Assembly: GCA_947502645.1 (NCBI GenBank)
Contig: CANNAD010000001.1
Span: 124,001 to 188,000, forward strand
Direction: 5' to 3'
Source of the DNA: an uncultured Micrococcaceae bacterium
Lineage (GTDB): Bacteria; Actinomycetota; Actinomycetes; Actinomycetales; Micrococcaceae
Length of the DNA stretch: 64,000 bases
Shown here: piece by piece, positions 19,473-36,521 of the stretch
Position numbering within the stretch: position 1 is the stretch's first letter
Layout of the letters: the number at the start of each line of letters is the position of its first letter
Position numbers and translations under genes: made by a program
The notes under the pieces: model-generated
The model's database searches: none
What the model saw: only the letters and a program-made list of their open reading frames with translations
What the model was told of the DNA's origin: nothing

Positions 19473-20504
19473 TTACGCTTCAGATACCCTGTCTTTGGCC
19501 CGCTTGGCATTGAATTTCTTCTGCCGCGGGTCGAAGGCGTCCCGTAGCCCATCACCGATGAAGTTGATGGACAGGCAGATCACCACGATGAATAGGCCAG
19601 GGAACCAGAACAGCCAAGGCCGCGTCTGGAATGCTTCCTGATTATCACTGATCAGTTTGCCCAGTGACACATCCGGTGCCTGCACGCCGAAACCGATGTA
19701 ACTCAGAGCGGTTTCAATCAGGATGGCTGCAGCCATCAGCAAGGTGGTGTTCACGATGATGACACCAACAGCGTTCGGCAGGATGTGCTTGAAGATGATC
19801 CGGTTGTTGGATGCTCCGGCAATCTTCGCGGCGTCGACAAACTCCCGCTCACGCAGGGACAGGAATTCACCGCGAACCAAACGAGCCATACCAGTCCAGG
19901 CGATGAGCCCGATAAGGACCCCCAGGAAGTAGATTCCTGCACCACGACCGAATGTTTCCTGAGCGATCTTTCCAAGAACGGCTGCGAGAACGATCACCGG
20001 AACAATGATGATGACGTCGGTGAGGCGCATGAGCACGGCTTCGATCATGCCCCGGAAGTATCCGGAGACGGCGCCGACAACTACGCCCACGAACGTGGCG
20101 AGGATGCCGATGATGAACATGATCACGATGGAGTTCTGAGCACCGCGCATGGTCATGGCGAACACGTCACGACCGATGGTGTCCTGGCCAAAAGGATGAT
20201 CACCCCAGCTGAATAGGTGCTGGTACGTTGGCGCACCGTTGTTGACGAGCGTCATCGGCTCAGTGTGGCTGTACTTCCACCAGCCCGGGATACCGAAGTA
20301 CCCCATTGAGCTGAAGGACAGGAGGACGATCATCACAAACACCACGAGAGAGACGATGGCCGCGGTGTTGCCGAGGAATCGTTTCCGAACAAGCTGCGCC
20401 TGGGAAAGGCCCTTGGTGTTGTCAAGGACTTCCTTCGACTGGCTCTCCTTGGGATCTGGGCCGGGCTCCGTGCTTGGCGTATCCGGCGGATTCTGAATAG
20501 TCAT
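19473..20504 (-). CDS. peptide-type ABC importer permease, DppC type, copy 2
   Basis: The 343-aa protein has a long acidic cytosolic N-terminus (about 1-45), a first helix at about 49-70, and the family sequences GQDTIGRDVFAMTMRGAQNS, REFVDAAKIAGASNNRIIFKH (ATPase contact loop) and LGKLISDNQEAF. The tail IGDGLRDAFDPRQKKF is typical of OppC. It starts within the last 4 bases of the upstream permease gene. It is more diverged from copy 1 than the binding proteins are from each other. Confidence 0.9.
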   Translation of the reverse strand: MTIQNPPDTPSTEPGPDPKESQSKEVLDNTKGLSQAQLVRKRFLGNTAAIVSLVVFVMIVLLSFSSMGYFGIPGWWKYSHTEPMTLVNNGAPTYQHLFSWGDHPFGQDTIGRDVFAMTMRGAQNSIVIMFIIGILATFVGVVVGAVSGYFRGMIEAVLMRLTDVIIIVPVIVLAAVLGKIAQETFGRGAGIYFLGVLIGLIAWTGMARLVRGEFLSLREREFVDAAKIAGASNNRIIFKHILPNAVGVIIVNTTLLMAAAILIETALSYIGFGVQAPDVSLGKLISDNQEAFQTRPWLFWFPGLFIVVICLSINFIGDGLRDAFDPRQKKFNAKRAKDRVSEA

Positions 20505-25995: not shown

Positions 25996-26550
25996 ATGCC
26001 TACACGTGTTCACGAGTTTGCCTGGCCTGATCGGGTCGTCGTTGGCACCATCGGACCTCCGGGGGCACGCACGTTCTACCTGCAGGTGCGTGCAGGGACA
26101 CAGGTGGTGACCATCGCCCTCGAGAAGCAGCAGTCGGCGCTGCTCGCGGAGAAGATCGACGAGATTCTCGACCAGCTCATCACCGTCGAGGGAAACCGCT
26201 TCAGCGTTCCGACGAGCACTCCCATTGAACTTGTCGACAATGACCAGCTCGAAGATGTCCAGGAGCAGTTCCGCGTCGGCGCCATGAGCCTGGGCTGGGA
26301 CCCAACCACGGCCCAGGTTGTCATCGAAGCCCACGCCATCACCGACGGCGATGCTGATAACAACGACGAATTGCTTGCTGAGGACGGCGCGCGCGAAACT
26401 GAAATGCTGCTGGTGCGAATGCCTGTTGGCACTGCCCGCGCATTCGCCAAGCGCACCCGCGAGATCGTCGGCGCCGGACGCCCGGCGTGCCCGCTCTGCG
26501 GTTACCCCATAGACGCCGACGGACACATCTGCACCCCTCCCGAGGCCTGA
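25996..26550 (+). CDS. DUF3090 family protein with zinc-ribbon-like end
   Basis: The 184-aa protein starts with the family pattern VHEFAWPDRVVVGTIGPPGARTFYLQ. Residues 1-160 are a mixed alpha/beta domain of unknown function. The tail RPACPLCGYPIDADGHICTP has the CxxC and HxC spacing of a small metal site. It overlaps the next gene by one base (TGATG). Function is unknown; co-occurrence with the phosphatase and the SCO1664-type protein implies one pathway. Confidence 0.9.
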   Translation: MPTRVHEFAWPDRVVVGTIGPPGARTFYLQVRAGTQVVTIALEKQQSALLAEKIDEILDQLITVEGNRFSVPTSTPIELVDNDQLEDVQEQFRVGAMSLGWDPTTAQVVIEAHAITDGDADNNDELLAEDGARETEMLLVRMPVGTARAFAKRTREIVGAGRPACPLCGYPIDADGHICTPPEA

Positions 26551-27317
26551 TGCCAGCACAGGACCTGGTGACCGCCGAACTGACACTCACCGGGCGCATC
26601 AGGACGGCTTCCAACGCTACATTTCTGGGCAACATCGGCGACGTGAGCGTCGTCTATAAGCCGATAGCCGGCGAAAGTCCGCTGTGGGACTTCCCCGACG
26701 GCGCCCTGGCGCACCGCGAGGTAGCCGCCTACCTGGTCTCGGAAGCCTTCGGCTGGGACGTGGTACCGCACACCTGGCTCCGCGATGGTCCGGCGGGCGA
26801 AGGCATGGTGCAACTCTGGCAGGAGCAAGACCCCGAACAGATCGCCGTCGACCTGGTCGCTACAGACCAGGTGCCGGAGACGGGCTGGAAACACGTTCTC
26901 GAAGGGCAAGACCAAACCGGGCAGATGGTCACCCTCGTTCACGAGGACTCACCAGCGCTCAGGCGAATGGCTGTGTTTGACCTGGTCGTCAACAACGCCG
27001 ACCGCAAAGGCGACCACATCCTTGCCATGACGGACGGACGCCGATACGGCGTGGATCATGGGCTCACCTTCCACCGTGACCACAAACTGCGCACGGTTCT
27101 GTGGGGATGGCTGGGAGAGACTCTGACTGCCGAGGAGCACGACGGCCTCGAGCGTGTCAGGGAAGGACTACACGGTGAACTGGGCCGACACCTGGCGGAC
27201 TTGCTCAGCGCCGAAGAAATCTCAGCGCTCGCTGCTCGCTGCGCTGGATTGCGCCTGACAGGGCGGTTTCCGGCTCCCTCCGGTGAGATGCCGGCGGTTC
27301 CCTGGCCACTGTTCTGA
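26550..27317 (+). CDS. SCO1664-family protein with kinase-like fold
   Basis: The ORF track begins at 26487, but the ATG at 26550 shares its A with the DUF3090 stop and gives the family-like start MPAQDLVTAELTLTGRI (255 aa). Elements recalling PI3/4-kinase-like folds are visible: SVVYKPIAGESPLWDFP (a lysine and an acidic/aromatic loop), AVFDLVVNNADRKGDHIL (catalytic-loop-like Asp and Asn) and RYGVDHGLTFHRD (DxG-like). The family's chemistry is not established. Third gene of the conserved trio. Confidence 0.9.
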   Translation: MPAQDLVTAELTLTGRIRTASNATFLGNIGDVSVVYKPIAGESPLWDFPDGALAHREVAAYLVSEAFGWDVVPHTWLRDGPAGEGMVQLWQEQDPEQIAVDLVATDQVPETGWKHVLEGQDQTGQMVTLVHEDSPALRRMAVFDLVVNNADRKGDHILAMTDGRRYGVDHGLTFHRDHKLRTVLWGWLGETLTAEEHDGLERVREGLHGELGRHLADLLSAEEISALAARCAGLRLTGRFPAPSGEMPAVPWPLF

Positions 27318-28076: not shown

Positions 28077-28109
28077 TCAGACGTTGAACGGGAACTCCTC
28101 CACGTCGCC
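28077..28109 (-). repeat. ychF-tail-like repeat, copy E
   Basis: Read on the minus strand, this stretch gives GDVEEFPFNV and a stop, against [10 protein letters not shown] and a stop at the end of ychF in this window. Base identity to the ychF tail is 21 of 30. It may be the outer attachment-site remnant of the island. Confidence 0.5.
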
Positions 28110-28179
28110 GCCCGGAGAAACGTCACGGAGCGGCGAACGCCGGCACCGGGGCCATCCTGTCTATCGGCCGCTTCGTTCG

Positions 28180-28485
28180 TCAGGCGACCTGCAGTCGCTG
28201 GTCGCCGACGACGTATTCAACGGCCATCCCGCCGCCGACGGCTTCAAGGTAGCCGCGGATCGTCCCGATCTTTGCGCTGTCGAGGTCGCCGTGCTCGATC
28301 TTGGAGATCTGGCGTTGGCCGACGCCGATGCGCTCTGCCAGCTGGGCCTGTGTGAGACCGGCCTGCTCGCGCAGCTCACGCAGGCGATAGGCGCGGACCT
28401 CGGCGAGCATCCGCTCCTTGTGCGCCTCGACGCGTTCCCGATCCACAGGCTGCTCTGCGACGAAGTCCTTCAGGGTCCTGGTCAT
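28180..28485 (-). CDS. XRE-family antitoxin-like DNA-binding protein
   Basis: The 101-aa protein (start MTRTLKDFVAEQ) has an N-terminal helical arm and then a helix-turn-helix of the XRE type at about 40-80: LREQAGLTQAQLAERIGVGQ followed by RQISKIEHGDLDSAKIGTI. This is the usual antitoxin partner of RelE/HigB-like toxins encoded immediately upstream. Here only a C-terminal piece of the toxin remains. An alternative GTG at 28494 overlaps the toxin stop. The ATG is favoured by AGGAG at a good distance. Confidence 0.8.
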   Translation of the reverse strand: MTRTLKDFVAEQPVDRERVEAHKERMLAEVRAYRLRELREQAGLTQAQLAERIGVGQRQISKIEHGDLDSAKIGTIRGYLEAVGGGMAVEYVVGDQRLQVA

Positions 28486-28490
28486 CTCAG

Positions 28491-28613
28491 TCACTCTCCT
28501 CTTAGCCTGCACAGGTGGTCGTCGAACAGGTCGTCGGCCACCGGGATGTTCTTCTTGTACCAGCGAGTCCAGTTACCTGCCTTGTCACCGGCCGTCAGCA
28601 TAGACCCTGCAAG
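28491..28613 (-). pseudogene. RelE/HigB-like toxin, C-terminal remnant
   Basis: Directly before the antitoxin, the minus strand reads MLTAGDKAGNWTRWYKKNIP and then VADDLFDDHLCRLRGE with a TGA. This is the C-terminal 35-40 residues of the RelE-type toxins whose ends read like GDKSGNW..WY...IP.AD..FDEHL. The roughly 70 residues that should precede it are not found in any frame, so the toxin has lost its N-terminal part, including most of the core sheet. It is too short for the ORF track. Confidence 0.7.
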
Positions 28614-28839
28614 GTCTGCCTGCAACGAACCCCCATTCCACTGCGGCGCCATCCCATATAAGTCCCTTGGGTGCAGTGATCGATCATAATTACACCCACC
28701 CGAGCGCCGTTGCCGCTGCTACCGTCCCCGCCCATAACGCTACGTTGAAACAGAACTCCACTACGTTGCGTAGCCGAATAACGTCATGTTCGTACACGCT
28801 GTCACGTGCGAAGCCTCGGAGTTGGGGCACAATAATCGT
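28614..28839. other. gap before arfB holding only a repeat copy
   Basis: No coding sequence is supported here. It contains repeat copy A and the presumed promoter of arfB. The missing part of the toxin gene should have been here. Confidence 0.4.
28741..28785 (-). repeat. island repeat, copy A
   Basis: 45 bases match copy C at 37 positions. Minus-strand reading gives RNVVEFCFNV without a stop. It contains CTACG-CAA-CGTAG, a short palindrome. Confidence 0.6.
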
Positions 28840-29280
28840 GTGGACGACTTGCGTGTTCCCCCGGGGCCCGGTTCGCCCCGCGGCCTCCGGGTACCGGCAG
28901 GAGAGCTGGCCGAGCAGTTCTCTCGCGCCTCCGGCCCTGGTGGCCAGAGCGTCAATACCGCCGACTCACGTGTGCAACTCAGTCTCGATCTAGGCACGAC
29001 AACGACGCTGAGCGAGGTCCAACGCAAACTCGCCATCGACCGCCTCTCCGAGAGACTCTCCGGCACGGTGCTTACCATCAGCGCCTCCGAGCACCGCTCC
29101 CAACGGCGTAACAGGGCCGCGGCGAGGCAACGCCTCGCGGCGGCCCTGCGAGACGCAGTGGCTCCCCCTGTCGTACGGCGAGCGACCCGCCCGACGAGTG
29201 GCTCGCGACGTCGTCGCCTCGAAGCAAAACGATTGCGCTCCGAGGCCAAGCGCAACCGCAGGCGCCCTGGGCCCGAATGA
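28840..29280 (+). CDS. arfB: alternative ribosome-rescue factor ArfB (peptidyl-tRNA hydrolase)
   Basis: ArfB enters stalled ribosomes that lack a stop codon and releases the peptide. The GGQ motif is in FSRASGPGGQSVNTADSRV, which matches the RF-domain consensus. The basic tail (RRRRLEAKRLRSEAKRNRRR) is the part that reaches into the empty mRNA channel. The ORF track starts at 28786, but the GTG at 28840 gives VDDLRVPPG and 146 aa, the normal family size. It is a housekeeping gene among accessory genes, so an island may have grown around it or it travelled with one. Its stop abuts the HigA remnant on the other strand. Confidence 0.88.
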   Translation: MDDLRVPPGPGSPRGLRVPAGELAEQFSRASGPGGQSVNTADSRVQLSLDLGTTTTLSEVQRKLAIDRLSERLSGTVLTISASEHRSQRRNRAAARQRLAAALRDAVAPPVVRRATRPTSGSRRRRLEAKRLRSEAKRNRRRPGPE

Positions 29281-29500
29281 GCTGCCTGATTTATGGAGTG
29301 TGGCACGCCGCTCGAGCCGCAGCTCGTAATTCGACTGCAGATTCATCCAGAACTCATCGGAGGTCCCGAAGTACCTCGCCAGACGGATCGCCGTGTCAGC
29401 CGTGATTCCCCACTTGCCGTGCACGATCTCGTTAATCCGACGCCGTGAGACGTCGATCGACACGGCGAGCTTGTTCTGAGTGATGCCGACGAGGTCACCG
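29281..29500 (-). pseudogene. HigA-type antitoxin remnant, both ends lost
   Basis: The minus strand reads GITQNKLAVSIDVSRRRINE, IVHGKWGITADTAIRLARYF and GTSDEFWMNLQSNYELRLE, which is the core of HigA/VapI antitoxins (XRE helix-turn-helix plus the RLARYFGTS element). The usual start (PIHPGE..L.EEFL) is missing and repeat copy B stands there. The C-terminal end runs without a stop into the antisense of arfB. No HigB toxin is nearby. The 28990-29742 entry of the ORF track is this remnant plus shadow sequence. Confidence 0.7.
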
Positions 29501-29513
29501 ACCAGCCGCCCCA

Positions 29514-29542
29514 AATTCAACCGCGTTCCGCAGCCGAATAAC
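29514..29542 (-). repeat. island repeat, copy B
   Basis: 29 bases match copy C at 25 positions. It lies where the N-terminus of the HigA gene should be, as if recombination at the repeat removed it. Confidence 0.55.
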
Positions 29543-29584
29543 CTGTTGCGCGCGGGCTCTTCGCACCGGAAGCCGAAAGCATCT

Positions 29585-29812
29585 TCACTCTGGATGCTGG
29601 CTGTGGTCTTCGACGTCTGGTTTCGCCCGCAGGACGTCGGCGATCTCTTCCTCCGGACGCGGCGCCGTCGTCTGGTCGACTTCAATCTCCGGGACGGTGG
29701 GTTCTTCAGGGTCGGGAATGTGCCCATTGGACGAATACTCATTGTGGGAAGACACGGCGAATCCTTCGGTTGGCAACACCCACAAGCCTATGCCGATCAC
29801 GGCGGCTCTGGC
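29585..29812 (-). CDS. possible small exported or membrane-anchored acidic protein
   Basis: The last 75 or so residues of the minus-strand frame 29585-30544 read RIARAAVIGIGLWVLPTEGF (basic then hydrophobic, signal-like) followed by an acidic, proline-rich tail with DPEEPTVPEIEVDQ and EEEIADVLRAK. Upstream of this the frame is antisense to the plus-strand ORF at 29876. No convincing start codon was found, so the 5' end is approximate. It may be a remnant. Confidence 0.3.
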   Translation of the reverse strand, partial: ARAAVIGIGLWVLPTEGFAVSSHNEYSSNGHIPDPEEPTVPEIEVDQTTAPRPEEEIADVLRAKPDVEDHSQHPE

Positions 29813-30562: not shown

Positions 30563-30592
30563 GACAGGGCCTATGGAACCGGAATTCAGTCA

Positions 30593-30637
30593 CACATTGA
30601 AGCGGAACTCCACCGCGTTCCGTAGCCGAACAACGTC
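30593..30637 (-). repeat. ychF-tail-like repeat, copy C
   Basis: Minus-strand reading gives RNAVEFRFNV and a stop, identical to ychF in the last seven residues but with synonymous base changes. The first 12 bases match the ychF 3' end exactly, and identity over 30 bases is 22. It is the best candidate for the left border of the segment that ends at ychF. Confidence 0.55.
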
Positions 30638-30920
30638 TACGTAGACCACTGCAATCCCGGTGGCCCAGAGACTCCACTCCGTCTAGCCGTGATCCCAGCT
30701 CAGGGAAGACAACTCACCCCAGAGCAGCTCGGGTACCGCATCAACCGCCGGGTCCAAGAGAAACTCGATTCTCGACACCGATGCCGCGCAACACCGGATA
30801 TGGCGACAGCAACTCACGGACTTCTTCGGCCGGCGTCGCGTGCCGGTTCCCCAAACTGGGTACTCGGATTCCCAGGTCCGGGGTAAATGTTCTCCCGTTG
30901 TAGACATAAAACATCCGTGA
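30638..30920. other. gap with decayed coding fragments
   Basis: Short frames on both strands look protein-like in pieces, such as IWRQQLTDFFGRRRVPVP on the plus strand, but none has a credible start, length or family. Probably decayed island sequence. Confidence 0.35.
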
Positions 30921-33596
30921 TCAGACGGGCGTACCCGTCCCGCCATGGGCGTCAGCATCATGCGCCACCGGATCGATACCGAAAAAAAACACATGCGGAG
31001 CTTCGCCAGGCCACACAACGAAGTACTCGCCGGTTTCAACTCGGACACGCGGCTCATCCTCGTCCTCTATGTCCTCAAACACCCCGAGCGCAATCGAAGT
31101 ATCGCCAACCGGCTCGAGGCCCTCCTTCATCTCAGGCTTGCGGCAAGAAATCAAGGTCGTGCGCCGGTCGAAGAGAATTGCCTCTTCATACAGCGAGGAA
31201 GTCTCAAAGTGGCTCACACGGGCGAGCGCCTCTGAGAACGCAGTCGAATACCACTCACCCAAGTCCGTGAGTCCTCCATAGGGCGTCAAGAGAACGTAGT
31301 GCTCCGCCTGGTCTCCGAGCGAATCAATCTGTTCACGGATCGCCAGCGCCGACGGTTCAAGTACTCCCTCCTTAAGAGAACGCAGCATCCCGACGATCTT
31401 GCGTTCCTCGCCGTCGGTGAAGCCGCGCGCGATCATCTGGCCGAGATCTGCCGGGTCGGCGTAGGTTTGGTTAAAGATCCTGTCGACGAGGTAGAGCTTC
31501 GGAACGCGGAAGTTCATCCCGAGGATCGGTCTCGATGCGTCAGCCCCTTCTGCAACCTCACTTGAATGAGAAATCATGTCAGCGAGTCGCTCGCCAGCGT
31601 CGAGGGTCTCCTTCAGCGCGGTCCGCAAGACGTCAATTCGTGTGCCGGACAGCGGCTCGGTGGCCAGACGCGAATCTTCCGCGGTCTTCCATTTGTCGAT
31701 CTCTTCGACCAACGATTTCTTGAGATTAACCTCCTCTGTGGTTGAGCCTCCGTCATGCTCGTCGAGAAGCCTCAGGAGACGCTGGTACTCTGAGGCAGTC
31801 TGCTGATCATTGGCCGGGGGAAGCGGTCCATACGACAATGCGAGAGCGTTCAAAAGGGCCCTGTCAATGTAATGAGATAGCTCGAGCAACTGGGCGTGAA
31901 CAGACCCACTGAGCTCCGTCTCCCACCAGTCCCAGCGGCTGAACGGGGCCTCCCCTCGTTCGGCGAGACCTCGGGCGGCGAGGATCTCAGCCCATGTGCC
32001 ACTGGGCGTCAACAGCGCTCGGAGGTCATCATCGGTTGGGTCTCGATCGTCGCCCTTATCTGCGAGGTAGTCCAACCAGCCCGCCAGAACTAGTTGACCC
32101 GCTCTGACTTGCGCTCTCTGGCCGCCATCTCGGTCGGAATACTCGAACAGACCACCGAGTTCCCCTGCAGCGCGGACGGCAAATTCCGGCTTATGCGCAT
32201 CCAGAGCGAGTTTGACCAGTTCGACCATCGCCCACGTCGCGCGTCTTGAGAGATCCCCACGCTTCTCCGTTGTGGAGTACGCCGCAAGGTTTTGCACGCA
32301 TAGGACGATCCGGCCAGGAATCTGATCGAACTCCGTCCCGCCTTGCCGAAGGACGTCGAGCCAAATTCGGGTGAAGCTGCGGAGGCATTCGTCAACGTAT
32401 TCGGCCGAGCCTGTACGAGGAGCTTCAAGTGTCCTCGTCATAGCTTGGCTAACAAACATACTTGCCGCGCGTGGCGATAGGAGAGCATCCTGTTCAACTT
32501 CTCCGATGCTGCGAAATAGCCAGTCGCGTCGGGTGATGGATGCACGACGAGACGTGTCGACGCCGTCTAGCTGGATCATCCACACACCTCTCACGACGTG
32601 TCCGAGCAATTCGACGGCTCGCTCTGCCGTGGCGTAAGCACCGGATCGAATGTTGGTTCCGACGGCATCTTTCAGACTCGCGATCTCACGTTCTGTCTCT
32701 TCATCGGGCGTGACCACCTCCGGAGCCTCAAACTCGACGCTCGACTGCAGCAGTCGGATGATCCGGCTTCGGCCCAGGCCGTCCAGAGGTTCGTTTGTGA
32801 TAACGCGGAACGCTGTTTCGCCAAGGCGGGTACGATCGCCGGGCTCAACTTCCAGGATGATTTGGGCCGGGGCGTAGTCCTTGAGACTCTCCGCCTTGGT
32901 AGAGCGACCCTCAGTCGCCGGCGGCGCGAGTGCGTCGAGCGCTTGCCTCACAGCTTTCACCCTGATTGCTTTAACTACAGCGCCGACTTGAGGCACTGGC
33001 ACTCGAAGTGTGACGGTCTTAGGCCTAAGGTCAAAATGGGTCCAACCCCATGTGACGAGGCCGTCCAGCTGCTTAGTCGCTTCGGAATACCTATGCGAAA
33101 CCTCTTCGAGACGACTGGACAAGGAGCCAACTAAGGAGGTGCGGACCACTTCGTCGAGCAACGACGGGCGTCCGAAAAGCTTCGTCAATCTGACCGTCGA
33201 TACCACCAATAGGACAACTGTAGGTACAAACCAGACGAGGGCAATGAAGAGGACGCCGAGGCCGCTGGACAACCAAATCGTCTCGATAGCAATGACAGCG
33301 TTTCCGACAAGACCAACGCCGACGAACCGGCCGGCTCCGATGTACTTGAGCACTCGGTCTCGAGAGGCTCCGATCGCGAGCGGAGTCTCGGCAAATAGTT
33401 GCGCGGCTATAGCGAGTCCTGCCAACCCAACTGACAGGAACGTCGTTTGCACCTGCCATAAGATCCCGTCACCTCCGGGTGCGGCCGGCAGGTGCAAGGC
33501 GAGCCACGGGGGATCACCAAGGAGGCGGGTGATCGCAAGCAGTGCCACGCTCACGAATAGCGAGCACCCTAGGAAGGTCCAGCTCCGCCACGTCAC
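30921..33596 (-). CDS. large membrane-anchored protein of unknown family (891 aa)
   Basis: Four hydrophobic segments at about 5-27, 45-69, 87-107 and 110-135 form an N-terminal membrane domain. A soluble part of roughly 740 residues follows, rich in helix (ATKQLDGLVTWGWTHFD, LLRLLDEHDGGSTTEEVNLK) with no P-loop, nuclease or protease motif that could be recognised. The GTG start at 33596 overlaps the TGA of a 41-aa ORF (GTGA), so the two are translationally coupled. The C-terminus has a run of Phe (HVFFFGID) and an acidic stretch (FEDIEDEDEPRV). Location in an island next to ychF suggests an accessory role, possibly defence or competition; that is inference only. Confidence 0.8.
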   Translation of the reverse strand: MTWRSWTFLGCSLFVSVALLAITRLLGDPPWLALHLPAAPGGDGILWQVQTTFLSVGLAGLAIAAQLFAETPLAIGASRDRVLKYIGAGRFVGVGLVGNAVIAIETIWLSSGLGVLFIALVWFVPTVVLLVVSTVRLTKLFGRPSLLDEVVRTSLVGSLSSRLEEVSHRYSEATKQLDGLVTWGWTHFDLRPKTVTLRVPVPQVGAVVKAIRVKAVRQALDALAPPATEGRSTKAESLKDYAPAQIILEVEPGDRTRLGETAFRVITNEPLDGLGRSRIIRLLQSSVEFEAPEVVTPDEETEREIASLKDAVGTNIRSGAYATAERAVELLGHVVRGVWMIQLDGVDTSRRASITRRDWLFRSIGEVEQDALLSPRAASMFVSQAMTRTLEAPRTGSAEYVDECLRSFTRIWLDVLRQGGTEFDQIPGRIVLCVQNLAAYSTTEKRGDLSRRATWAMVELVKLALDAHKPEFAVRAAGELGGLFEYSDRDGGQRAQVRAGQLVLAGWLDYLADKGDDRDPTDDDLRALLTPSGTWAEILAARGLAERGEAPFSRWDWWETELSGSVHAQLLELSHYIDRALLNALALSYGPLPPANDQQTASEYQRLLRLLDEHDGGSTTEEVNLKKSLVEEIDKWKTAEDSRLATEPLSGTRIDVLRTALKETLDAGERLADMISHSSEVAEGADASRPILGMNFRVPKLYLVDRIFNQTYADPADLGQMIARGFTDGEERKIVGMLRSLKEGVLEPSALAIREQIDSLGDQAEHYVLLTPYGGLTDLGEWYSTAFSEALARVSHFETSSLYEEAILFDRRTTLISCRKPEMKEGLEPVGDTSIALGVFEDIEDEDEPRVRVETGEYFVVWPGEAPHVFFFGIDPVAHDADAHGGTGTPV

Positions 33597-33718
33597 CTCG
33601 CCGTGTCCCCCACATCGGCGGCCCTCAATTGCGCCTCAACATGGTGTGCCAAGGCGGGCGCCGTCAGGACGACGTGAGTGCTGCCTAGCCCATCTTCCTG
33701 GTGTTTCCCATGCTTCAT
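33593..33718 (-). CDS. 41-aa ORF coupled to the 891-aa gene
   Basis: This ORF is too short for the supplied track. ATG at 33718 is preceded by GGGAGAAG at a normal ribosome-site distance. The protein (MKHGKHQEDGLGSTHVVLTA, then PALAHHVEAQLRAADVGDTAR) ends in a TGA that shares bases with the GTG of the next gene. It is hydrophilic with four His residues. An in-frame ATG at 33739 would add seven residues, but its GGGAGAA lies too close. It may be a true small partner or a leader whose translation opens the downstream start. Confidence 0.55.
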   Translation of the reverse strand: MKHGKHQEDGLGSTHVVLTAPALAHHVEAQLRAADVGDTAR

Positions 33719-33826
33719 CACTACTTCTCCCAATGTCATTTCTCCCAACTATCCGTACCCGTATCGGAGCGTATGGCGACTCGATGTTCTGTCCCTATGC
33801 CTGCCCTGCTGTCCATCCGTTGGCGG

Positions 33827-35041
33827 TCACAAATAATTTATGTCGAAAGTGACGGAATTTCTGTCGTCGAGATCGGTGCTAGAGCACTCAAAGAAGACGA
33901 CCTTTGTCGCTTCCAAAGGAACGGATGTTAGCCACCCTCGCCGGCGATCACCGGGACCCTGGACGGCAACTGGTGTACACCAGCCCTCGCCCACGTCGTA
34001 TGCAACGCATAGTTGGGAATTTGTTACTACCGCCGAGCCATGAATTTCAAGCTGTTCTCCCACCCTCTGCTCGCCGATGACTTCGATATGGGGTCGCCCG
34101 TCATAGCTAATAGTTGCCGAGCGGTGTTGGGCCCATGGAATCAAATGGCGATAGAAGTCCATGACCGACGATACAAACGCCGGATTGGAGTTGTGTTTCT
34201 CAATACGTGCCTCAAGTAGGGTCTGGCGAACCCCGCCCATCGAACTTCGCGCTGGGTAATAACCAGCATGCTCTTGGCACAGCGCTTGAACAGATTGGGC
34301 ATCGCTCAATGGGTGGGATGCGGTTATCTGCGCCACTCCGTAGCTACCACTAGGAACGAGACGTCCTTTAGCTCGCTCCAGGCTCCGCATCCATCTCGGT
34401 CGTTGCAGTGCCTCCGCCGCCACGATGGCCTGTATCAAGACCGGCTCACAGTTAGCGTCAAGGGCAGCTTGATTCACAAACTCCCAAGTGTCTTCTCCTA
34501 TATCCCTCCGCGCCGCTGCCAATTTCTGTTCGACACTTAGCGCCGGGGAGCGTAAGAGCTGCTGGAAAGCAGTGGCGAGTACCGCGGCAAAGACGGCAGT
34601 CCATACAGCGAAAATGAGTTCATCCGGCTCTGGGATGAAAGCCGCGTACCAGTGATACGTAAAGTAGGACAGGACGACGAGCCCTGCGATCAGAACGAGA
34701 TTAAAGACGTAGTAGAACCACAACACGGGTCCCCTCCCTGCTCCCCCGCGCCGCAATCGCCAAAGGGCGCGACCATCGTTACCCAACGCATATGGGACGC
34801 CCATGCACACCAGTGCGACCAGTGCGTTACCGCCCAGCCGTTCCCCCGTGATGGCCAGCAGGCTACCAACCGCATAAGTCGGGAAGCAGCGGAAAAGCAA
34901 GTACCTCAATGCACTCGATCGAGGAGCACTGTCGAGCGCTGTCCGGACTGACATATAGGACTCTGGCCAATGGGATTGCATGCTTGTGTAAAGGACATGC
35001 AAGAAGCCTGCCCCTAGCAATCCGAGTATTACTGACGTCAT
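33827..35041 (-). CDS. membrane protein with C-terminal lysozyme/transglycosylase-like domain
   Basis: The first 165 residues contain about four or five helices (3-20, 43-62, 66-86, 105-128, 140-162). Residues about 175-290 look like a transglycosylase-type lysozyme fold: VLIQAIVAAEALQRP offers the catalytic Glu and SGSYGVAQITASHPL resembles the G-x-x-Q element of the SLT family. The final 100 residues are beta-rich and unassigned (GEQLEIHGSAVVTNSQL). AAGG 7 nt before the ATG is the ribosome site. It is the first gene of a minus-strand set with the 41-aa and 891-aa genes, 108 bases apart. The lysozyme-like call comes from motif spacing only. Confidence 0.7.
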   Translation of the reverse strand: MTSVILGLLGAGFLHVLYTSMQSHWPESYMSVRTALDSAPRSSALRYLLFRCFPTYAVGSLLAITGERLGGNALVALVCMGVPYALGNDGRALWRLRRGGAGRGPVLWFYYVFNLVLIAGLVVLSYFTYHWYAAFIPEPDELIFAVWTAVFAAVLATAFQQLLRSPALSVEQKLAAARRDIGEDTWEFVNQAALDANCEPVLIQAIVAAEALQRPRWMRSLERAKGRLVPSGSYGVAQITASHPLSDAQSVQALCQEHAGYYPARSSMGGVRQTLLEARIEKHNSNPAFVSSVMDFYRHLIPWAQHRSATISYDGRPHIEVIGEQRVGEQLEIHGSAVVTNSQLCVAYDVGEGWCTPVAVQGPGDRRRGWLTSVPLEATKVVFFECSSTDLDDRNSVTFDINYL

Positions 35042-35312
35042 GGGATTACCTTGAACGGTGAGCGCCCCAAAACAAAATCAACGACTGATCAGCGCCAGGC
35101 CAGACAATTTCTGAGAGGCCACCAGCTCCCTTCCACGCAGACCATACCTTGGCTCGATCGTACAACCGACAACCGTGGACTGGACTTCTGGGCGAAGGCA
35201 ATCGCAGATTCACTTCCACCTATATCCGAGAACTTGTAGCGCCAAAGCCTAGGGCCGCATTAGACGAAGATACATGAGGGTTAATCTCCTTTAGGCCCTC
35301 GAACCTGTTATA
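35042..35312. other. gap between the island genes and the ychF terminator
   Basis: Probably holds the promoter of the minus-strand membrane-protein set. A 62-aa plus-strand frame starting with TTG at 35051 has no ribosome site or family character and is not called. Confidence 0.35.
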
Positions 35313-35354
35313 AGAAATGCCGCCCTCATCGTTTCCGATGAGGGCGGCATTTCT
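35313..35354. terminator. strong terminator of ychF
   Basis: Perfect 19-base arms (AGAAATGCCGCCCTCATCG and complement) around TTTC. On the minus strand the stem is followed by TATAACAGG, and the A/T-rich base of the stem provides a T run, so it fits an intrinsic terminator for ychF. Confidence 0.8.
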
Positions 35355-35373
35355 ACTAATTCAGGCGAAGGGT

Positions 35374-35406
35374 CTACACATTGAAGCGAAATTCAACCAC
35401 ATCGCC
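35374..35406 (-). repeat. 3' end of ychF, reference copy D of the tail-like repeat
   Basis: This is the genuine end of ychF ([10 protein letters not shown] and stop). Copies C and E in the island resemble it at base and codon level. The 3' ends of conserved genes are frequent targets of site-specific integration. Confidence 0.5.
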
Positions 35407-36459
35407 GTCGACCATGACATAGTCCTTGCCTTCAATGCGGACCTTGCCGCGGGACTTGGCCTCGGACATTGATCCGGCGTCCATGAGGTCGTCGAAGGAG
35501 ACTACTTCAGCTTTGATGAAGCCTCGTTGGAAGTCTGAGTGAATGACTCCTGCAGCCTGCGGGGCGGTGTCTCCACGGTGGATGGTCCAGGCCCGCGTTT
35601 CTTTTGGCCCGGCCGTCAGGTAGGTCTGCAGTCCAAGAGTGTGGAAGCCTACCCGCGCCAACTGGTCAAGGCCGGACTCATCCTGTCCGTTCATCTCCAG
35701 CATTTCGCGGGCCTCTTCCTCGTCCAGCTCAACGAGGTCCGACTCAAGCTTCGCGTCAAGGAAAATGCAGTCCGCAGGAGCAACGAGTTTCCGCAGTTCG
35801 TCCTGCTTCTCCGTACTGCCGAGAATTCCCTCGTCAGCGTTGAAAACATAGATGAAAGGCTTCGCCGTCAGGAGACCGAGTTCCTTCAGGTGCTCCATCT
35901 CAAGTTTATCGCTCGTGATCGACGAGAAGATCGTGTCCCCACGTTCCAGAACGGTCAGCGCAGCCTTCAGCGCAGTAAGTTCCGAAGCCTCGCGCTTCTT
36001 GATCTTCACTTCTTTTTCGATGCGTGGGATAGCCTTTTCCACGGTCTGGAGGTCGGCGAGGATCAGTTCGGTGTTGATCGTCTCCATGTCTGAGGCAGGG
36101 TCAACCTTGCCGTCAACGTGAATAACATCAGGGTCATCAAAGACGCGCACTACCTGTGCGATGGCCTCCGCCTCACGGATGTTGGCCAGGAACTGGTTAC
36201 CCAGGCCCTCGCCCTCAGACGCCCCGCGGACGATCCCGGCGATGTCAACGAACGAGACAGTCGCAGGCAATATGCGCTGCGAACCGAAGACCTCAGCCAA
36301 CTTGGCCAGACGCGGATCAGGCAGACTGACGACGCCAACATTCGGTTCAATAGTGGCAAACGGATAGTTTGCCGCCAGAACCTGATTGCGCGTCAGCGCG
36401 TTGAAGAGGGTTGATTTGCCGACGTTGGGCAGTCCGACGATGCCAATAGTAAGAGCCAC
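35374..36459 (-). CDS. ychF: redox-regulated ATPase YchF
   Basis: YchF is a conserved Obg-family P-loop protein that prefers ATP and binds ribosomes. [18 protein letters not shown] is the P-loop, [20 protein letters not shown] holds the G3 region, and [10 protein letters not shown] stands at the G4 position, with NADE in place of NKxD as the family has. A TGS-like C-terminal domain closes at VVEFRFNV. The track start at 36498 is too long; GTG at 36459 gives 361 aa, the standard length. The gene's 3' end borders the accessory island. Confidence 0.96.
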
Positions 36460-36521
36460 GGTCCACCATCCTACCGGGGACCAAGTCCAAAATGTCACCG
36501 ACGCATGTCAGGCTAGCCACC

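Follow-up and report, generated by a model that had tools for sequence, protein, structure and literature searches.

A Micrococcaceae genome carries two orphan membrane-protein genes in a probable tandem array of small mobile cassettes at the ychF 3' end

Next to the ychF gene, the genome of an uncultured Micrococcaceae bacterium (GenBank assembly GCA_947502645.1) carries three minus-strand open reading frames (ORFs) of 404, 41, and 891 amino acids (aa). They were analyzed within a stretch of 64,000 nucleotides (contig CANNAD010000001.1, positions 124,001 to 188,000), hereafter called the window, to which all coordinates refer unless a locus is named. Sequence comparison indicates that the segment 28077-35418 very probably consists of small mobile cassettes arrayed in tandem, which site-specific recombination has placed at the 3' end of ychF; a family of large serine recombinases is the likely catalyst. 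The three ORFs are best explained as the cargo of cassette 1 of this array, i.e., as independently travelling orphan membrane-protein genes of 404 and 891 aa, the junction between which would have generated the 41-aa ORF and shortened the N terminus of the 891-aa protein.

Short repeats shared with the ychF 3' end came to light in a pairwise alignment of loci containing relatives of the 891-aa gene. They belong to a 45-bp site (consensus GTTATTCGGCTACGGAACGTGGTGGAGTTCCGGTTTAACGTGTAG) that consists of an element-specific half and a copy of the ychF 3' end. With a site profile built from other loci, the window being excluded, five sites were found in the window, including the ychF end, all on the ychF strand; the next best score in the 64 kb was 7.4. 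A direct pattern search retrieved the two best of these sites (sites 1 and 3), where zero matches are expected by chance. The array and its first cassette comprise the following features.

35374-36498, minus strand: ychF (GTPase/ATPase YchF), the anchor gene, with its C terminus DVVEFRFNV intact
35374-35418, minus strand: 3' end of ychF, chromosomal half of the site (attB-like) and proximal boundary of cassette 1; profile score 25.9
30590-35373, minus strand: cassette 1, ~4.74 kb, with the 404-, 41-, and 891-aa ORFs; its boundaries are the ychF 3' end and site 1
33827-35041, minus strand: 404-aa protein, with five predicted N-terminal helices, a candidate lysozyme/SLT-like domain at ~183-300, and a C-terminal beta region
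33593-33718, minus strand: 41-aa ORF, the stop of which overlaps the 891-aa gene start in GTGA; probably junction-derived and of doubtful coding status
30921-33596, minus strand: 891-aa protein, with four predicted N-terminal helices and a predicted cytoplasmic bulk of ~750 aa
30590-30634, minus strand: site 1 (attR-like), distal boundary of cassette 1, GTTGTTCGGCTACGGAACGCGGTGGAGTTCCGCTTCAATGTGTGA; score 64.2
29498-29542, minus strand: site 2, with the element half intact and the ychF half decayed, cutting into the 5' part of a HigA-like gene; score 20.2
28738-28782, minus strand: site 3; score 44.8
28077-28121, minus strand: site 4, distal end of the recognizable array; score 25.1

Sixty extra ychF regions were surveyed, and the 72 loci with a readable ychF contained 86 sites downstream of the gene, none upstream and none in reverse orientation, the sites near the 20-bit threshold being mostly decayed and some of them possibly chance copies of the ychF end. 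At least one site was present in 25 of 33 loci of genus g216 and in 9 of 24 loci of the window's family, both sets being unselected and outside the profile. Up to five sites follow each other in a row, at a median site-to-site distance of 1.8 kb, and the cassettes, most of which measure 0.5-5 kb and hold one or two genes each, keep a constant orientation. The ychF gene itself was found conserved in every genome of the family (121 of 121). In the loci read, it either keeps the C terminus DVVEFRFNV (or a near variant) or has gained an alternative end (...SGLTSGGKK). Such altered ends (...SGLTSGGKK or ITSAAQGKK) were found in thirteen loci, in 10 of which the right arm of the altered end, read as its reverse complement, matches the left arm of the array sites at no fewer than 14 of 17 positions (the maximum at 20,000 random positions being 12). 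Taken from different genomes, these reverse-complementary half-sites together make up a single dyad-symmetric element site, as expected of the attP of a serine recombinase.

Genes of the resolvase/recombinase type are present in six surveyed loci. In L103 and L126, the recombinase ORF starts 21 bp from a site, and both proteins share a family with the Pfam Resolvase+Recombinase proteins of L098 and L100; relatives of these recombinases include the TP901-1 and PhiC31 integrases. At the level of the compared sequences, the loci display the sites with their orientation bias, the two half-sites of one dyad, cargo that varies, and recombinase genes that begin 21 bp from a site. We infer that the recombinase acts on the 45-bp sites and that the cassettes are still mobile. 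In the mechanism we propose, a circular element with the dyad-symmetric site GTTATTCGGCTACGGAA - core CGTGGTGGAG - TTCCGTAGCGGACTAAC would recombine with the final codons of ychF. It would supply a new 3' end to ychF, and the displaced end would mark the far boundary; as the new 3' end is brought by the element, ychF would stay functional. Repeated insertion would stack cassettes in one orientation and, since most cassettes lack a recombinase gene, the enzyme would be needed in trans.

Phages and islands commonly insert site-specifically at gene ends, recombinase-bearing elements of several kb are found at some of the loci (L144, L098), and the attB of a pneumococcal prophage adjoins ychF (PMC8637289). 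The repeats could be remnants left at ychF by the insertion, once or twice, of an ordinary prophage or integrative element that has since decayed, rather than the boundaries of a cassette array. However, the island in the window contains neither a phage structural gene nor a recombinase, the site was found on no viral contig, and rows of up to five sites with small cassettes of constant orientation, as described above, do not fit such relics. We consider this explanation unlikely.

Several observations also weigh against a mobile cassette array. The array in the window lacks a recombinase gene of its own, its site 2 is half decayed, and neither an excised circle nor movement was observable. 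No attR was found beside the copy of the 891-aa gene in Actinopolyspora, and another copy (locus L028) is not located at ychF. Furthermore, no copy of the 45-bp site was found in viral contigs or in phage or plasmid records, and the cargo does not consist of defence genes only, as discussed below.

The first-pass annotation had presented the three ORFs as a membrane system forming one unit within an accessory island. ORF reading confirmed the ORFs and their positions, the 41-aa ORF ends in a TGA that indeed overlaps (GTGA) the GTG with which the 891-aa gene begins, and a ribosome-site-like stretch (GGGAGAAG) precedes the 41-aa ORF, which would be 48 aa long if an alternative ATG seven codons upstream were used. 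The three ORFs are indeed part of an accessory island, and defence genes are found beside relatives of the 891-aa gene. Here the ORFs constitute one cassette, since two recombination sites flank them and none lies between; a hidden site between the 404- and 891-aa genes was considered and rejected (best profile score -24.1, rank 151). In a true three-gene system for anti-phage defence or contact competition, the 404-aa protein as a lysozyme-like effector, a small regulator, and the 891-aa protein as a sensor would cooperate. The arrangement on one strand in one att-bounded cassette, the overlap of the 41-aa stop with the 891-aa start, and the membrane anchoring of both large proteins, with predicted cytoplasmic parts, would suit such a system. 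However, in a draw of 396 genomes, the 404-aa family was found in several others and the 891-aa family in three others, never together, the two sets overlapping only in the window's own genome. Likewise, a profile search retrieved no relative of the 404-aa protein from the five other genomes that carry the 891-aa gene. Thus, the unity claimed for the ORFs holds for this cassette and not for a conserved system: outside this genome, the homologues of the two large proteins are always apart, and the 41-aa ORF lies at a unique junction. A cooperating three-gene system is, therefore, very unlikely.

The evidence for a junction comes from the relatives of the 891-aa gene, in which DNA alignment revealed no 41-aa ORF. 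Homology of the window's gene at the DNA level to the copies in L003, L026, and L034 starts at +3 of the GTG. These three copies have 11-16 extra codons at the start of the gene, with a conserved ribosome site upstream; by the same 11-16 codons, the N terminus in the window is shorter. Because homology starts at +3 and the longer relatives have a ribosome site of their own, the best reading of the 41-aa ORF, and of the GTGA overlap, is that of a junction specific to this genome. At L028:8368-8562, a 64-aa ORF is located upstream of an 894-aa homologue with the same GTGA overlap, and its last 21 residues are faintly like the 41-aa ORF. Kinship between the two small ORFs was not accepted, as 65 of 2000 shuffles scored equally well and the DNA alignment was unconvincing. 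Conservation of the 41-aa ORF was not found, its resemblance to this single ORF being doubtful at best.

The 891-aa protein has five full-length relatives with 64-75% identity, i.e., in Actinopolyspora righensis (L003, 74-75%), in two species of one genus (L026 of genome G508, 74%, and L034 of G821), in L027 of G521 (65%), and in L028 of G672 (64%); beyond this full-length family, no distant relatives were found. Matches in G014, G522, and G737 (E 1e-3 to 1e-4) were judged spurious, since they were partial and one ran through stop codons. Averaged hydropathy supports four N-terminal helices, which, like a large predicted cytoplasmic part, are consistent across the family. Compared with the Actinopolyspora gene, differences at codon positions 1, 2, and 3 amount to 0.18, 0.14, and 0.39, respectively, which argues that the protein is under purifying selection. 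Searches of PDB sequences with the 891-aa protein yielded nothing convincing, and AlphaFold2 runs on it and one relative gave no usable model (pLDDT 36).

The 891-family gene is located 3' of ychF in the window and in L003, L026, L027, and L034, and what separates the two genes differs: nothing in L003 and L026, an AbiH gene in L027 (Pfam 2e-18), an AAA_13/PDC-S06 gene in L034, and the 404- and 41-aa ORFs in the window. In L026, L027, and L034, it fills a single-gene cassette of its own. Had the 891-aa gene long been inherited vertically in the ychF region and been lost from most lineages, instead of being mobile cargo, its position next to ychF in four lineages would be explained, as would its identity within genus g216, which tracks that of ychF (91% vs. 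93%). Its sporadic distribution (2 of 57 genomes of one genus and 3 of 395 other genomes of the order) speaks against such descent, as do the different cassettes between it and ychF (AbiH, AAA_13, 404-aa) and the copy in L028, which is located elsewhere. In addition, its identity between orders exceeds that of ychF (74-76% vs. 70%; 74% vs. 70% between the window and Actinopolyspora). Vertical inheritance is, thus, highly improbable, and mobile cargo remains the preferred reading. At L003:7682-7741, ychF of A. righensis has SGLASGGKK in place of the terminal FNV, an alteration of the type seen in genus g216, which belongs to another order. This altered end suggests that the ychF site was probably also the route by which the 891-aa gene entered another order.

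The 404-aa protein belongs to a family with ten distant relatives, eight from the order (20-28% identity over the alignment) and two from the class. None of these is sited at ychF or has an 891-aa partner, and they occur in unrelated contexts, for example beside a Fic gene (L020) or a PIN-like ORF (L124, L125). At L124:8169-9911 and L125:8215-9944, in two genomes of another family of bacteria, the 404-family gene is convergent to this PIN/VapC-like ORF, and the L125 copy adjoins an integrase-like fragment. Five N-terminal helices are supported by averaged hydropathy in the family, where four or five had been annotated. The lysozyme-like domain that had been proposed behind these helices is weakly supported, at a level above controls. 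In a profile-profile alignment with SLT transglycosylases taken from related genomes, E210 falls on the catalytic Glu and GVAQ (235-238) on GLMQ, with a score of 29.1 and a probability of 43%, compared with at most 14.0 in 20 column shuffles and 11.1 for the reversed profile. A goose-type lysozyme was the top PDB match of the family profile (E 0.3). In contrast, none of nine family members matched a lysozyme or SLT family in Pfam, a PDB search with the single sequence gave nothing convincing, and AlphaFold2 produced no usable model of the protein alone (pLDDT 43). Invariant positions in the family include E210, R214-P215, R219, E222, G235, Q238, and N284. The likeness to the SLT and goose-type lysozyme superfamily consists of an invariant Glu at a helix end, a GxxQ motif, and a late invariant Asn (N284), whereas the 404-aa domain differs by an insertion of ~10 residues (RPRWMRSLERAKG) after the Glu, by its position below Pfam detection, by its fusion to five membrane helices, and by its predicted cytoplasmic location. 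As the five N-terminal helices and the charges of the loops favor a cytoplasmic lysozyme-like domain, a murein-cutting role is only putative.

Neither large protein has a meaningful family match in Pfam, NCBIfam, or PADLOC, in agreement with their annotation as undescribed membrane proteins, and no relative of either was found in viral contigs, phages, or plasmids. By the positive-inside rule, the soluble parts of both are predicted to face the cytoplasm. Judged by the company they keep, the two proteins may be defence effectors, a suggestion we make tentatively. Cargo of neighboring cassettes includes AbiH, AAA_13/PDC-S06, AbiTii together with ApeA, GmrSD, and Abi_2. Among 58 scanned cassette proteins, GmrSD was the commonest family (4); Abi_2/AbiD (2), AAA_13, AAA_15, and ApeA were also encountered, as were MFS, HAD, SDR, glyoxalase, LtrA, and KptA proteins; since the scanned proteins were partly picked by length, this tally is a list and not a rate. 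AbiTii was identified separately. Defence genes are, thus, prominent but not exclusive in the cargo, and the idea of a defence-only cargo was rejected as MFS, SDR, HAD, and glyoxalase genes are also carried.

Some further loci contain cargo of note. At L105:14326-18144, a 1273-aa protein without a Pfam or PADLOC family fills the whole cassette right after ychF and is possibly another undescribed cargo gene. At L101:1340-8488, an AAA_13/PDC-S06 gene and then a type III restriction-modification pair directly follow ychF, with no recognizable sites between them. Similar-looking cassette proteins of 821-837 aa, with N termini of approximately KKKARDLPSRRIVTAD, are found after ychF in two different families (L136:2804-5314 and L166:1697-4159).

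The remainder of the array in the window and its flank contain the following genes.

28990-29742, minus strand: HigA-family antitoxin ORF in cassette 3 (NCBIfam TIGR02607, 1.1e-21), with the HigA domain from ~29487 downward
28180-28512, minus strand: HTH/HipB-like (helix-turn-helix) antitoxin gene, cargo between sites 3 and 4 (Pfam HTH_3, 2.3e-12)
26487-27317, plus strand: SCO1664-family gene, chromosomal flank beyond the array (TIGR03843, 2.8e-107)

In 29498-29742, the frame of the HigA-like ORF runs through site 2, which thereby encodes its N-terminal part; this suggests that a cassette boundary was fused into the antitoxin gene by recombination or deletion. In genome G458 (L097), the SCO1664 gene directly follows ychF, i.e., the arrangement is empty.

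On a broader view, the locus may represent an integron-like form of capture by serine recombinases at the actinobacterial ychF. Recombinase-free single-gene cassettes with a ready-made ychF end would be taken in trans and stacked by order of arrival, creating a defence-rich, fast-changing locus in which the 891-aa family would be a widely shared, undescribed defence cassette. We regard this scenario as conceivable rather than probable. In the literature searched, no report of ychF as an integration site in actinobacteria was found, which is weak evidence given the incomplete coverage. If confirmed, the array would make accessory and defence genes easy to locate in actinobacteria by a simple rule, i.e., to read between the 45-bp copies after ychF. 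The locus would also offer natural pairs of serine recombinase and attB at a conserved, insertion-tolerant gene end, and the movement in trans of small recombinase-free cassettes becomes a directly testable question.

The 404- and 891-aa genes occupy the same kind of cargo slot as AbiH, AbiTii, ApeA, PDC-S06, and GmrSD in neighboring cassettes, but share no detectable sequence with them. Like integron arrays, the ychF array consists of tandem single-gene cassettes with recombination sites between them and is anchored at one end. However, no IntI or attC was seen, though no search was aimed at either, and the recombinases seen are of the serine type. Furthermore, the sites resemble double-strand sites of serine recombinases and include a copy of the host gene end, and the cargo genes are on both strands.

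The staphylococcal and enterococcal cassette chromosomes (SCC and ECC) occupy the 3' end of a conserved gene and feature ~50-bp repeats, dyad symmetry, large serine recombinases, and several attR copies (PMC6222049). Similarly, the ychF array has its insertion point in the 3' end of a conserved housekeeping gene that keeps its reading frame, has 45-bp direct-repeat sites in one orientation with 17-bp arms that are reverse-complementary in 10 of 13 loci, and shows several attR sites in a row and variable cargo. Large serine recombinase genes were found in six surveyed loci, next to a site in L103 and L126, and none in the array of the window. The differences lie in the target, which is ychF instead of rlmH (orfX), in the actinobacterial host and another site sequence, and in the cassettes, most of which are 0.5-5 kb long with one or two genes and no recombinase. 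As to CcrA/B/C of SCC/ECC, the recombinases of the ychF loci were matched only to the Resolvase/Recombinase families of Pfam and to integrases of the TP901-1/PhiC31 type. By analogy, the ychF array resembles a cassette chromosome in the way it would work, without being filed as SCC.

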